IMG/VR virus record: IMGVR_UViG_3300024262_000266
Location: 1 to 22,741 of that record
Length of the DNA stretch: 22,741 nt
Origin: a virus
Reading direction: 5' to 3' (one strand)
Shown here: piece by piece, positions 3,280 to 19,368 of the stretch
Layout: the number at the start of each line of letters is the position of its first letter
Numbering within the stretch: position 1 is the first letter of the stretch
Made by a program: the position numbers and the translations under genes
Notes under the pieces: model-generated
The model's input: only the letters and a program-made list of their open reading frames with translations
What the model was told of the DNA's origin: nothing
Databases searched by the model: none

Positions 3280-3612
3280 GTCTTTTCTGAAATAAATATA
3301 TAATAATTTGCATTATTTCACACAATTATACACCGAAAATTAGATTTTTTTGCTCTTTTTTTACCTGAAATCGTTGTAACCCTTATAAATAAAGGGTTTG
3401 CTTGATTTTTGAATACGTTCGTAGACTGCATATATGAAGAAATTTTGCAGGGTCGCGTATATTTGTATGTATAGGGCTAAAAGACCCCCCTTAAAACGTA
3501 AAATTGAAGGTCTGTTTTTGATGATCTTAAATTTGACCCCCGGAGCCCTAGAATCTCCGGGGTTAGGAAGTGATTAAATGAAAAAGCACGTGCGGGTAAG
3601 TAGCAAGCAGTT
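3280..3612. other. intergenic region between lysis-side genes and the left operon
   Basis: About 330 bases show no credible gene on either strand. They hold the hairpin at 3378-3398 (AACCCTT / AAGGGTT, 7-nt loop) and the GC-rich hairpin at 3538-3562. A weak AGACC / GGTCT stem at about 3484-3512 is followed on the minus strand by TTTT. A TATAAT-like box lies on the minus strand near 3335, without a good -35. It separates two transcription units and may carry regulatory sites. Confidence 0.5.
3538..3562 (-). terminator. GC-rich stem-loop, probable transcript end or boundary
   Basis: CCCCGGAG (3538-3545) and CTCCGGGG (3555-3562) form a perfect 8-bp stem with a 9-nt loop. It lies 50 bases downstream of the last gene of the lysis-side block (3613). 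On the minus strand it is followed by GTCAAATTT, not a clean U-tract, so it may end transcripts inefficiently or act as a 3'-end stabiliser. Confidence 0.45.
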
Positions 3613-3876
3613 TTATTTTAGAATATTTGGATCAATATCCCAAACAATCTCTTCTAATTCTTTTGGGGTCCATCCCTTAATATCTTTTTTAAACTCTTCT
3701 ATTGCATCTTTCACTTTCTTATCTAGATTCTTAGTGTAAATTTTTCCCTTCTTATATTTCTTCCACTTTTCGATTTCTTCAGAATAGACCTTGTCTAACC
3801 CTCTTCTAACGAACTCTTTTATTACTACCTTAATTATTTCGGGTTTGGCAATTTCTATACCAAGAAAAAGAATCAA
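3613..3876 (-). CDS. downstream ORF, probably translated as a -1 frameshift extension of the gene at 3918-4139
   Basis: As an isolated ORF (87 residues) it would begin with TTG at 3876, but no ribosome-binding site is visible before it. The same frame is open without a stop back to the CCCTTTA heptamer at 3924-3930, at the end of the upstream gene. Read through the frameshift, 16 more residues (RLTARIDKSGKRAILK) precede this segment and the whole product has 175 residues. The segment is helical and very charged (for example EEIEKWKKYKKGKIY), with a short hydrophobic patch LILFLGIEI. No family is recognised. An ordinary frameshift mutation or an unaided TTG start is the alternative. Confidence 0.65.
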   Translation of the reverse strand: MILFLGIEIAKPEIIKVVIKEFVRRGLDKVYSEEIEKWKKYKKGKIYTKNLDKKVKDAIEEFKKDIKGWTPKELEEIVWDIDPNILK

Positions 3877-3885
3877 TTTCAGAAT

Positions 3886-3930
3886 AGCACGTTTACCCGA
3901 TTTATCTATTCGTGCTGTTAGTCTAAAGGG
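3886..3930 (-). promoter_or_regulatory. programmed -1 ribosomal frameshift signal
   Basis: In the frame of the gene at 3918-4139, the codons TAC CCT TTA contain the heptamer C CCT TTA (3930-3924), which fits X XXY YYZ exactly. After a 7-nt spacer (3923-3917, holding the zero-frame stop), AGCACG (3916-3911) pairs perfectly with CGTGCT (3891-3886) around a 19-nt loop. Slipping back one base gives CCC TTT AGA and opens the frame that runs to 3613. Heptamer, spacing and stem all match the known layout for -1 frameshifting. Confidence 0.65.
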
Positions 3931-4139
3931 TAATCTTCAAGAGGATATTTTTTAAGTAGTTTATCTCTTACGCCAATTTCAACTATTCGATAAGCGGTAT
4001 TATCGAATTTAGTAGTAGTTTTATCAACCTGAGCTTGTAAGAATTTCCCAAATGCACCATAGACTGTTTCTACTTGAGCCTCTGCAAATTCATCAAGTTT
4101 TTCTAATGCACTATTGGCTACATCCCATATTCCTGCCAT
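3918..4139 (-). CDS. small protein of the lysis-side block, zero-frame product of a frameshift gene
   Basis: The 73-residue protein is probably helical (ANSALEKLDEFAEAQVETVY, then FGKFLQAQVDK), with no signal peptide or membrane segment, and ends in a curious PLEDYPLD. AAGGTGAG lies six bases before the ATG. I do not recognise a family. The last codons form a -1 slippery heptamer with a downstream stem-loop, so a fraction of ribosomes would make a 175-residue form that includes the ORF at 3613-3876. It lies downstream of the holin, endolysin and lipoprotein genes, which hints at a late function in lysis or virion release, but that is by position only. Confidence 0.7.
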   Translation of the reverse strand: MAGIWDVANSALEKLDEFAEAQVETVYGAFGKFLQAQVDKTTTKFDNTAYRIVEIGVRDKLLKKYPLEDYPLD

Positions 4140-16718: not shown

Positions 16719-17909
16719 TTATTCCACCTTGATTAAATTTTTCTTTGTGTCTTTCGTTGCCGCCCAGATATCCCAGCGTATAGGCAGCCTATTATTATTC
16801 AATCCAATTCCCATATTCATATATTCTCCTGCTTTTTCATAGTTCTTTTTCTCGAATTCATAGATAGCCAGCCAGTTCAGAATTTCCGGTAAAACTATTT
16901 TTGTATTGTTAACTAATAATCGTTCATACAAACTTCCCTTCGTTTTACAAATATCAAGTGCAATATCAAAATATTTTTTTGCTTTTTCATTATCCCTGCT
17001 GGTCCAGTAATTTCCTAACATCAAGTATATTTGAGAGATCCTGCTCGAATAATGACAGGCCTCCCTCTCTATTCTTTCCGCATTTTTTATATCATCTTCG
17101 GCCAGATATGAACCCACCATCTTAACAAAAACTTCCAGGAATGAATTCCAGCCCTCATTATAATCTTCCTTTCTCATATTCTTGATCCATATCTCACCAT
17201 AGCGAATCGTATTCTCAAAATCTTTGATAATATAATATGTCTTCACCAAGTGGGTCAAATTATGCAGGTTTTCCGGATGTTTTTCAAACTCTTTTTGGAG
17301 CATTGGCAGACTGCGCGCCATTTTATTATCTAACAGTTTTTCGCCCTTTTCCCCCTGAAAAATATATCCGTAATGATTAAAAATTATATGAGGGGCAAAA
17401 AGATAGGGGGCCTTGCAGATCGGTTTATTGTGGACGGCCTGTTCAAAATGGAAGCCCTTTTCATTTTTGAATATTCTCGGCTGCAGCATTTCCGAATATT
17501 GTCTTAAATCCTTAGTATAATAATTGTATAAATTTACAAATACCGTTGGTTCCTTATATTTTGGGTTCAGAATTATATCCTCTAACAGATATAGACATTC
17601 ATGACGCAATTCTTCATCGGCATCCATATACATAATTTTATTCCCGGTGGCCTTCCCGATCCCATAATTGCGGGCTTTACTGAAATCCCAGGGGATAAAT
17701 TCTTTTTCATATACTTTGTCGGTAAATTTTTTGGCAATATTTATCGTCCTGTCTGTTGATCCGGTGTCCACTATAACCAGTTCGGTAAGTGGTTTTATTG
17801 TTTTATCGTCTTTCATTTGAATAATAGGTAAGAAGGAATCCAGGCATCTTTGTAAATTTGCCTCTTCGTTCTTTACTATCATGCATATTGATAATTTTGG
17901 TTTTTCCAT
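16719..17909 (-). CDS. family-2 glycosyltransferase with C-terminal helical repeats
   Basis: Residues 1-110 are a GT-A fold: LSICMIVKNEEANLQRCLDS, then LVIVDTGSTDRT, then WDFSKARN (74-81) and the metal-binding DAD at 96-98. HFEQAVHNKP (154-163) and NHYGY (178-182) follow. That order is as I remember it in the SunS S-glycosyltransferase of phage SPbeta and related GT2-TPR proteins; alignment is needed. Residues 200-390 are TPR-like helices. It would use a nucleotide sugar to modify a protein or small target in the cytoplasm. The start overlaps the NTF2-like gene by one base (TAATG), with AAAGGAGAG upstream. Unusually, it lies between tail chaperone and tape measure, so a tail protein is a candidate acceptor. 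Confidence 0.85.
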   Translation of the reverse strand: MEKPKLSICMIVKNEEANLQRCLDSFLPIIQMKDDKTIKPLTELVIVDTGSTDRTINIAKKFTDKVYEKEFIPWDFSKARNYGIGKATGNKIMYMDADEELRHECLYLLEDIILNPKYKEPTVFVNLYNYYTKDLRQYSEMLQPRIFKNEKGFHFEQAVHNKPICKAPYLFAPHIIFNHYGYIFQGEKGEKLLDNKMARSLPMLQKEFEKHPENLHNLTHLVKTYYIIKDFENTIRYGEIWIKNMRKEDYNEGWNSFLEVFVKMVGSYLAEDDIKNAERIEREACHYSSRISQIYLMLGNYWTSRDNEKAKKYFDIALDICKTKGSLYERLLVNNTKIVLPEILNWLAIYEFEKKNYEKAGEYMNMGIGLNNNRLPIRWDIWAATKDTKKNLIKVE

Positions 17910-18253
17910 TATCTCTCCTTTAAACAGCTTATAGGATTAACGCCCCAGTTCCCTTTTATATCCGGTTTATAGGGCCCAGTTTCACAAATAACTCTTGCCC
18001 TTATTTCTTTTATCCCCTTTCCGTAATCAACATTAACAAAGACATCTCTGCAGGCATCCCCCACAAATTCGATTTTGATTATTTCCCATTTATTCAGATT
18101 TTTTAATCCGAACCAGCCTTCTAACCACCGGGCGTTGTTTTTACGGAAAGCTCCCCTCCAGGTCAATTGAGTATATTTCAACATTTTCACCCAGTTTTTC
18201 TTTCTCCAATTGATCAGGAATTTTTCTATTACCTTTTTTGCTTTCTTGTTCAT
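17909..18253 (-). CDS. NTF2/SnoaL-like small protein in the tail module
   Basis: I start at ATG 18253, because AAAAGGGAGAG lies just upstream, overlapping the stop of the peptidase gene. The longer frame begins with TTG at 18304 and lacks a site. The 114 residues show an NTF2-like plan: helix VIEKFLINWRKKNWVKMLKY, then QLTW, then curved strands IIKIEFVGD and FVNVDYGKG, ending in GNWGVNPISCLKER. I recall similar small proteins ending in WGVNPIS in phages, but cannot confirm this. The function is unknown: enzymatic or scaffold roles are both possible. It is co-translated with the glycosyltransferase gene. Confidence 0.65.
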   Translation of the reverse strand: MNKKAKKVIEKFLINWRKKNWVKMLKYTQLTWRGAFRKNNARWLEGWFGLKNLNKWEIIKIEFVGDACRDVFVNVDYGKGIKEIRARVICETGPYKPDIKGNWGVNPISCLKER

Positions 18254-18266
18254 AAATCTCTCCCTT

Positions 18267-18629
18267 TTATTGATTAATTTTAATAAATGACGTCTCCCTT
18301 TCAAATTTATCTAATTTCGTTCTTACTCCGCGTGACGGATCATAATATTTATTATTATTCCAGACACAAAAATGTTTATTCTTATATCCGGAGTAATGAA
18401 TAGTGATTATACAGAGTTTCGGTTTATTATTATTTTTTATTCTGACAGTTTTATTACTACAGGTTATTCCCCTTTTTTGTAAGGCGTAATATATTGTTTT
18501 TGTGCCCGTTTTGCCCCTTGAACCAAATAATTTTATTGATTCATCAAGTGATATCCCGGCAATCATCGCCACGCAGGCCTGACCACACAGATTCGAATCA
18601 TCGGGTTGCCTGATTAAATTAATTGTCAT
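18267..18629 (-). CDS. C39-like papain-fold cysteine peptidase
   Basis: This 120-residue protein matches the C39-like peptidase layout. There is an early glutamine Q8, the nucleophile C15 in NLCGQACVAMIAGIS, then H86 in NKHFCVW, and D97 in YYDPS. Such domains cut after a double-glycine or, in stand-alone phage forms, have unknown substrates. There is no signal peptide, so it acts in the cytoplasm or in the virion. AAGGG precedes the ATG, and the start overlaps the end of the chaperone frameshift product (ATGA-type junction at 18626-18629). It heads a three-gene insert before the tape measure. A tail maturation protease or a host-directed enzyme are the options; activity is not proven by motif alone. 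Confidence 0.75.
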   Translation of the reverse strand: MTINLIRQPDDSNLCGQACVAMIAGISLDESIKLFGSRGKTGTKTIYYALQKRGITCSNKTVRIKNNNKPKLCIITIHYSGYKNKHFCVWNNNKYYDPSRGVRTKLDKFERETSFIKINQ

Positions 18630-19368
18630 AATAACCCTTCCAATTCTTTTATATCTTTAATCTCCATATCGCTTATTTCTTTCTTTTTTTGTTTTTTGGA
18701 ATCATAACTGGGAATACTACTCATCAGCATCGCTAAGTTAGTATATGAGTAATTCCATAAGATATCCCTCATGGACATCCGGGGAAAATAATGCATCAAT
18801 CCGCCGATTATTCGCCAGGGGTTGTTTCCTTCTTGGTCTGCAGAAGATTCATCCCCTTTATCGAAACTAAAGACGCCAAAAAAGGGTTTACATCCATTTG
18901 CTGAACTATTACCGTCATTAGTTTCAACCCCTCCTTCGCGGTCAGATTTTCATTTAAGAATTTAATCAGACTTTTAGGGGGTTCTTTCTCTCTATTGACA
19001 ATTCCGTAGGCAATCATCTTGATCAGTTTGTCTTTATTCTCGATTATATTCTTCGCCCCCAGATCTAAAAGATTGATTTCTTTATTTTCGTTTTTCATCG
19101 CCCCCACTAATTCATCAGTATTTAAATCTAATAGAATTTCACTAATTTTTAATAGGGTCCCCATTTTAATAGGGTAGATAACGAATTTTCTTTTAGGGGG
19201 GGTTAAATTAAATTTATTAAGTATACTTTTATTTTGGACGGTAATGGTAAAATCAACTCCCTTTTCGAGAATTGAATCTATGGCGTCCTGGCGGATCTGA
19301 TTATTCTTGTTATCACTCGGGGCCCCGAGCTTGTCCTTGATTTCTTTTTTTTTATTCTTTTTGGCCAT
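18626..19368 (-). CDS. tail assembly chaperone, -1 frameshift product (GT-like)
   Basis: A -1 slip at A AAG GGG (18859-18853) joins the first 172 residues of the short chaperone to 75 residues in the -1 frame, ending with TGA at 18626-18628 (247 in all). The extension begins DESSADQEGNN and contains PWRIIGGLMHYFPRMSMRD and ILWNYSYTNLAMLMSSIP, the kind of sequence seen in T-domains of frameshifted chaperones. In lambda the long form recruits tail tube protein to the tape measure. The extension has no start codon or ribosome-binding site of its own and fills the 178 bases before the peptidase gene. Confidence 0.85.
18808..19368 (-). CDS. tail assembly chaperone, short (G-like) product
   Basis: The 186-residue zero-frame product lies directly after the major tail protein, the position of the tail assembly chaperone in siphophages. 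It has a basic, disordered N-terminus (KKNKKKEIKDK), then a mixed helical domain (RKFVIYPIKMGTLLKIS, LNTDELVGAMKNE), and ends in LLQTKKETTPGE. It binds the tape measure during tail assembly. AGAGGGAGA lies directly upstream of the ATG. The slippery site near codons 171-172 splits the output into short and long forms. The tape measure gene is normally next; here three other genes come between. Confidence 0.85.
   Translation of the reverse strand: MAKKNKKKEIKDKLGAPSDNKNNQIRQDAIDSILEKGVDFTITVQNKSILNKFNLTPPKRKFVIYPIKMGTLLKISEILLDLNTDELVGAMKNENKEINLLDLGAKNIIENKDKLIKMIAYGIVNREKEPPKSLIKFLNENLTAKEGLKLMTVIVQQMDVNPFLASLVSIKGMNLLQTKKETTPGE
18829..18859 (-). promoter_or_regulatory. -1 ribosomal frameshift site of the tail chaperone
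   Basis: The zero-frame codons ATA AAG GGG ATG contain the heptamer A AAG GGG (18859-18853), which fits X XXY YYZ. After a 6-nt spacer, CTTCT (18846-18842) can pair with AGAAG (18833-18829) around an 8-nt loop, a weak stem that could stimulate slipping. The -1 frame is open from well upstream of this site to 18626. Confidence 0.75.

Follow-up and report, generated by a model that had tools for sequence, protein, structure and literature searches.

Probable programmed -1 frameshifting in a small gene pair behind a phage endolysin

Introduction

Are two adjacent reading frames behind the endolysin gene of a tailed phage separate genes, or one gene with two alternative ends? The question is raised by ORF A and ORF B in IMG/VR record IMGVR_UViG_3300024262_000266, of which we analysed positions 1 to 22,741 (22.7 kb, referred to here as the window). 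The minus strand of the window carries the late operon of a tailed phage, in which the major capsid protein, tail genes, a one-span membrane protein, the endolysin and a lipoprotein-like gene are followed by ORF A. In tailed phages, programmed frameshifting is textbook matter for tail chaperones and is known for some capsid proteins. A preliminary description of this DNA, made from the letters alone, had suggested that A and B are joined in the same manner.

Results

Anatomy of the A-B locus

ORF A (4139-3918, minus strand) begins with an ATG at 4139, preceded by an AAGG-type ribosome-binding site, and its 0-frame product of 73 amino acids terminates at the TAA in 3920-3918. The 3´ end of the gene reads GAT TAC CCT TTA GAC TAA and contains, in the A frame, the putative slippery heptamer C CCT TTA (3930-3924, minus strand), with the A stop 3 nt past it. 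ORF B (3930-3613, minus strand, stop at 3615-3613) occupies the -1 frame, which is open for 105 codons counted from the heptamer. No start codon is present near the beginning of B; of ATG, GTG and TTG, the first to appear past the A stop is a TTG, 15 codons in, which no ribosome-binding site accompanies. Upstream of the heptamer, the -1 frame is open for two codons only and is closed by a TGA (3939-3937, minus strand) located 9 nt ahead. With this TGA on one side and the A stop on the other, about 20 nt remain in which a shift could occur. The predicted fused A-B product has 175 amino acids. All coordinates of the preliminary description were confirmed: its junction of the two frames at C CCT TTA, its statement that B has neither ribosome-binding site nor ATG and is open back to the heptamer, and the frame lengths behind its predicted products of 73 and 175 residues.

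Seven nucleotides after the heptamer a perfect 6-bp stem begins (AGCACG, 3916-3911, pairing with CGTGCT, 3891-3886, both minus strand), closing a loop of 19 nt. In the minimum-energy fold, the loop segment TCGGGT (3900-3895, minus strand) pairs with ACCCGA (3844-3839), which might form a pseudoknot or an alternative hairpin.

Two further elements were observed around the end of B (approximately 3535-3580, plus strand, in the window). A GC-rich hairpin behind B is retained in most loci. On the strand opposite B, most loci carry a good ribosome-binding site and ATG AAA AAG (ATG at 3578-3580 in the window), directed antisense into the end of B, which might be a short antisense ORF under conservation, or else an ACCTCC element with another use.

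Taken by itself, the sequence of the window makes a modest case for frameshifting. In-frame heptamers of the X XXY YYZ type represent 65 of 6689 codon pairs (0.97%) in the genes of this phage and, as four to five codon pairs are usable in the overlap, a heptamer would be expected there by chance with a probability of about 4-5%. Of the dinucleotide shuffles, 7% contained a perfect stem of 6 bp or more that began 4-10 nt past the shift site, and the folding z-score of -0.6 indicates a local fold that is not unusually stable. The 7-nt spacer and 6-bp stem noticed earlier are real, but as a stimulator the stem is weak on its own. In the whole window, the only in-frame heptamers entering a -1 frame of more than 40 codons are C CCT TTA, a cluster at 18889-18859 and TTTAAAG at 17924, and the gene after the last of these begins with its own ATG.

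The cluster at 18889-18859 belongs to the tail assembly chaperone gene (19368-18808, minus strand), which has its own -1 frameshift at A AAC CCT TTT TTG from 18889. Its -1 frame is open for 87 codons and extends 61 codons past the stop (IIGGLMHYFP...), and T TTT TTR is nearly invariant in about 25 related loci. Frameshift control is thus normal for these viruses, and the chaperone served as an internal positive control for the method. The A-B frameshift is separate from it. We considered whether A and B themselves might be a tail assembly chaperone of the G/GT kind and rejected this in view of their position behind the endolysin and the lack of a convincing PHROG or Pfam match; the actual chaperone of the window is the separate gene at 18808-19368. 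The stretch between this gene and the tape measure gene encodes, unusually, a C39-peptidase-like protein (18267-18629, minus strand; E 0.003, below cut-off) and a glycosyltransferase-like protein (16719-17909, minus strand; recognized by eye).

Relatives of the window-type gene

Searching directly with A or B retrieved no relatives. Three other proteins of the phage, the endolysin, the capsid protein and one of the tail, were used to fetch relatives, whose loci were then searched. The locus L018 was found in this way, and L106 by alignment search. Being near-identical here (389 of 394 bases), they count as one lineage, so that the window-type gene was found in two lineages in total. ORF A of L018 and L106 shares 55% and 53% identity, respectively, with that of the window and ends (T/C)AC CCT TTG GAT TAA, with CCCTTTG at the position of the window's heptamer. 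B again lies in the -1 frame without a start, and this frame is closed 24 nt upstream of the heptamer. CCCTTTA or CCCTTTG is therefore in frame in all three window-type loci.

The residues YPL, encoded at the shift site, have a second copy further upstream in A. The codons of this second copy differ between the loci (TAT CCT CTT versus TAC CCA TTA), but C CCT TTR is retained at the shift site itself in the window, L018 and L106. This is consistent with conservation of CCCTTTR beyond amino acid constraint, as judged from two lineages. B is homologous between the window and L106; a RID motif near its beginning, upstream of any B start codon, is preserved in residues but written with different codons (CGA ATA GAT versus AGG ATT GAC). 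The excess of third-position differences between these two B sequences is small, owing to the high divergence of the pair.

L106 possesses a hairpin of 12 bp, including one G-U pair, which begins 5 nt past the heptamer. Its z-score is -2.6, and none of 2000 shuffles contained an equally long one. The hairpin corresponds in position to AGCACG/CGTGCT of the window and has no sequence in common with it. Comparison with related phages had been named in the preliminary description as a way to check the proposed signal: heptamer, -1 B frame and hairpin position are all kept in L018 and L106, and no uninterrupted A-B frame occurs among the relatives found. A search for further window-type B genes yielded L106 again and nothing else.

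In L106 (5388-5813), the window-type A-B module sits behind a different endolysin, of the glycosyl hydrolase 108 (GH108) type. Evidently, the module moves or persists independently of endolysin type.

A sister family with a different heptamer

In 16 related phage loci (14 clusters at 80% DNA identity), the same endolysin is followed by a different A gene together with a B in the -1 frame. This sister A encodes about 90 amino acids (MTKILE.LG...PGFGAEKKK...FFNLVGWFK). All 16 loci contain an in-frame A AAC CCY (CCT or CCC), one to six codons ahead of the A stop. The asparagine of the heptamer is AAC in every locus, against a background of 18% (387 of 2151 Asn codons in these loci); the background of CCY among proline codons is 58%. 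The base before AAC is likewise always A, compared with 35% A at third positions in general, even though the preceding codon itself varies (Ser, Gly, Lys, Val, Thr, Glu). By these figures, the heptamer of the sister family is conserved in divergent relatives to a degree beyond what the amino acids demand.

Sister B also appears to be a constrained protein in the -1 frame, as its differences concentrate at third codon positions in most pairs compared. Nine of the 16 loci have a -1 frame that opens no earlier than 6 nt ahead of the heptamer, and in L120 a -1 stop immediately precedes the heptamer. B of L108 contains no ATG, GTG or TTG over its whole length. Five loci do have one of these triplets in the -1 frame 5 codons upstream of the heptamer; its kind differs from locus to locus and it is not conserved. 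A consensus or conserved downstream RNA structure was not found in the sister family.

We did not accept homology of B between the window and sister families (profile comparison, probability 40% over 23 columns). A resemblance of sister A to a protein of Thermus phage TMA (E 0.05) was dropped because no lysis genes surround the TMA protein. A metagenome-assembled genome of Bacillota encodes a sister-A homologue with neither heptamer nor B, hence A can stand alone.

Several arrangements were noted in passing. Contig IMGVR_UViG_3300031578_000051 (51 kb) carries two sister pairs, L110 and L111, one near each end. In two Bacillota genomes (L129, 1662-1934; L131, 1707-1931), a distant sister-A homologue stands directly behind an amidase gene. 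After it comes a conserved -1 ORF (LDPFSV.VEYHV.AGRLP.ENPG) that lacks an obvious start; the two may form a further frameshifted pair. The phage locus L014, which has an A AAC CCT pair, also includes at 2044-2334 a fragment of the C-terminal region of window-type B, sharing 84% identity with the corresponding part of L106 and placed after an ORF resembling the N-terminal part of an HNH nuclease. This arrangement suggests module exchange.

Weighing other explanations

A sequencing error or recent indel might have split one gene, or B might be a decaying remnant. Such an accident would be easy to imagine for a single metagenomic contig in which two neighbouring frames belong to no known family. 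L018 and L106, however, are separate assemblies, about 55% identical to the window in A, whose frames divide at the same codon. Among the relatives found, none has an unbroken A-B frame, and 16 sister loci share the -1 arrangement, an unvarying heptamer and a B constrained as protein. An equivalent signal, preserved by relatives at this position in another gene, makes the slip look deliberate, and an error or a decaying B is very improbable. Transcriptional slippage, by which a fraction of mRNAs would carry an indel, is hardly credible: although it is a known alternative in bacteria (reviewed in PMC5009743), neither the site of the window (CCCTTTA) nor that of most sister loci (AAACCCT) offers a sufficiently long run of A or T.

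Separate translation of B, by termination-reinitiation or from a non-standard start near the A stop, merits somewhat more attention and is still improbable. The stop of A lies inside the start of B, a layout in which coupling is common in phage operons; in MS2, as Berkhout is said to have reported in 1987, termination at the coat gene activates the lysis gene. The triplets found upstream of the heptamer in five sister loci could serve as starts, but their lack of conservation, together with an L108 B devoid of any start codon, speaks against this use. The first B start of the window, 15 codons in and unaided by a ribosome-binding site, has conserved residues upstream of it. Moreover, coupling leaves the invariant 0-frame AAACCY or CCCTTTR unexplained.

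Programmed -1 frameshifting at A-B, as first proposed from the window, thus gains support both from L018 and L106 and from the A AAC CCY present in all 16 sister loci. Together, as far as comparison of sequences can tell, the window-type relatives and the sister loci make it very probable (about 0.87).

Protein features and the post-endolysin position

Neither window A, window B nor the fused protein has a convincing match in Pfam or PHROGs; the best PHROG match, a 'transcriptional repressor' (E 0.0027, 56 residues), was judged to be due to chance. Searches of A and B separately in NCBIfam, and searches of annotated phages and GTDB genomes, gave nothing convincing. Window A is not hydrophobic and has no predicted membrane span. 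A hydrophobic stretch (mean Kyte-Doolittle 1.8) lies in the B part, so that hydrophobic segments exist only in the A-B form. Since A looks soluble, frameshifting would decide how much of the product reaches the membrane.

In the sister family the predicted roles are distributed otherwise: there A itself would be the membrane protein, holin-like in character, and B would form a soluble tail of helices. The model of sister A consists of three helices, the first and last of which (residues 2-24 and 56-83) are hydrophobic with hydropathy of 2.4 and 2.0; the model of sister B is helical and non-hydrophobic. A fold search of both models against the PDB returned nothing significant. Sister A of L014 resembles Holin_LLH (PF09682) with E 0.0014 and 19.5 bits, below the cut-off of 24.9, whereas window A-B does not match this family. 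Distant bacterial homologues of sister A are found directly behind amidase genes.

The surroundings of the window pair are those of a lysis region. Upstream of the endolysin lies a small one-span, holin-like membrane protein (5486-5157, minus strand), whose similarity to BhlA is weak and below cut-off. The endolysin itself (5170-4676, minus strand) is of the peptidase M15 type and served as the anchor for locating the slot in relatives. Between it and A, the lipoprotein-like gene (4590-4183, minus strand) encodes a signal with the lipobox LFVGC and has no family match above cut-off. The same post-endolysin slot is occupied in L009 and L015 by an unsplit Holin_LLH. In L022 (21607-21916) it contains a short A (MWTIISKIL...KMLLGF), with GGG TTT TGA at its end, and then a B that lacks a start, lies in the +1 frame and weakly resembles the B of the window type; this single instance possibly represents a +1 shift at UUU UGA.

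From position and weak similarity, we tentatively propose that A-B is a lysis-linked membrane protein made as short and long forms in a fixed ratio, comparable to a holin and its C-terminally extended regulator, although we would not give this even odds. In both families the two forms would differ in membrane behaviour or regulation. A frameshift that is real but belongs to a post-endolysin gene unrelated to lysis, serving for instance in superinfection or host takeover, is a serious contender, if again somewhat short of even odds. Window A and B lack family matches, window A lacks a membrane span, and L106 keeps the same module behind a GH108 endolysin. In favour of lysis stand the persistence of the position behind endolysins of different type, the occurrence of Holin_LLH in the same slot and that of distant sister-A homologues behind amidase genes. 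More doubtful is the broader idea that, in a group of uncultured tailed phages, the slot repeatedly hosts non-homologous pairs controlled by frameshifting (at C CCU UUR, at A AAC CCY and perhaps, as a +1 shift, at the UUU UGA of L022), the ratio of short to extended lysis protein being selected and frameshifting forming part of the lysis clock.

Discussion

The A-B gene would be one translational unit with two products. Most ribosomes would read A through to its stop and release the 73-residue protein. On C CCU UUA a fraction would move one base backwards: the P-site Pro-tRNA would leave CCU for CCC, the A-site Leu-tRNA would exchange UUA for UUU, and these ribosomes would go on in B to make the 175-residue A-B protein. 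The hairpin just past the A stop would probably assist. What is observed is the anatomy of the locus, heptamers kept where synonymous change was free, the protein constraint on B, and the absence of usable starts; the slip, its efficiency and the part played by the hairpin we infer.

Some points weigh against the proposal. Downstream structure is strong in L106, weak in the window and not conserved in the sister family, and neither UUA nor AAC is the best of codons for re-pairing. In E. coli, A AAC CCA was one of three motifs that did not work, and ZZN codons composed entirely of pyrimidines shift more (PMC4066793). By these rules, CCY is the better A-site choice.

The locus would represent a second conserved frameshift, in a lysis-adjacent gene, with two unrelated pairs using different slippery sites at the same position. 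This coincidence suggests that a fixed ratio of lysis-linked protein forms is under selection. Gene callers will split such genes: lacking a usable start codon, B would be missed or mis-started. The A AAC CCY family further offers 14 divergent natural variants for studying how a weak-looking heptamer functions outside E. coli.

How does A-B compare with known systems? The preliminary description had called CCCUUUA a known slippery site. A precedent does exist in giardiavirus, whose shift site has the identical heptamer and was proposed to act with a downstream pseudoknot, but the role of the heptamer there has been challenged (PMC8230311), and giardiavirus is a dsRNA virus of a eukaryote, unlike the phage of the window. 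The same description knew of no such frameshift beside lysis genes. This holds for holins in the accessible parts of the open-access reviews and surveys PMC5009743, PMC3711429 and PMC4066793, in which no case was found. It does not hold for Streptomyces cluster BI phages, where untested frameshifts near endolysin and holin genes were predicted by GeneMarkS (PMC9671017). That case resembles A-B in proposing frameshifts in lysis-adjacent genes and differs in being a gene-finder prediction, given in the accessible text with neither slippery site nor comparative evidence.

With the lambda G/GT tail chaperone, A-B would share a -1 shift on X XXY YYZ late in a small gene, from which a short protein and one lengthened at the C terminus result. 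It differs from G/GT in having no detected homology, a different heptamer, a shift site 3 nt from the stop, and a place behind the endolysin instead of before the tape measure gene. Holin_LLH (PF09682) shares the slot behind the endolysin in L009 and L015, and one sister A matches it weakly; it is, however, a single ORF without frameshift, which window A and B do not match. The holin and antiholin of lambda S arise from two start codons and differ at the N terminus. If the lysis inference is right, A-B would resemble lambda S and other two-product lysis genes in making two forms in a set ratio; unlike in lambda S, these forms would differ at the C terminus and be produced by frameshifting.
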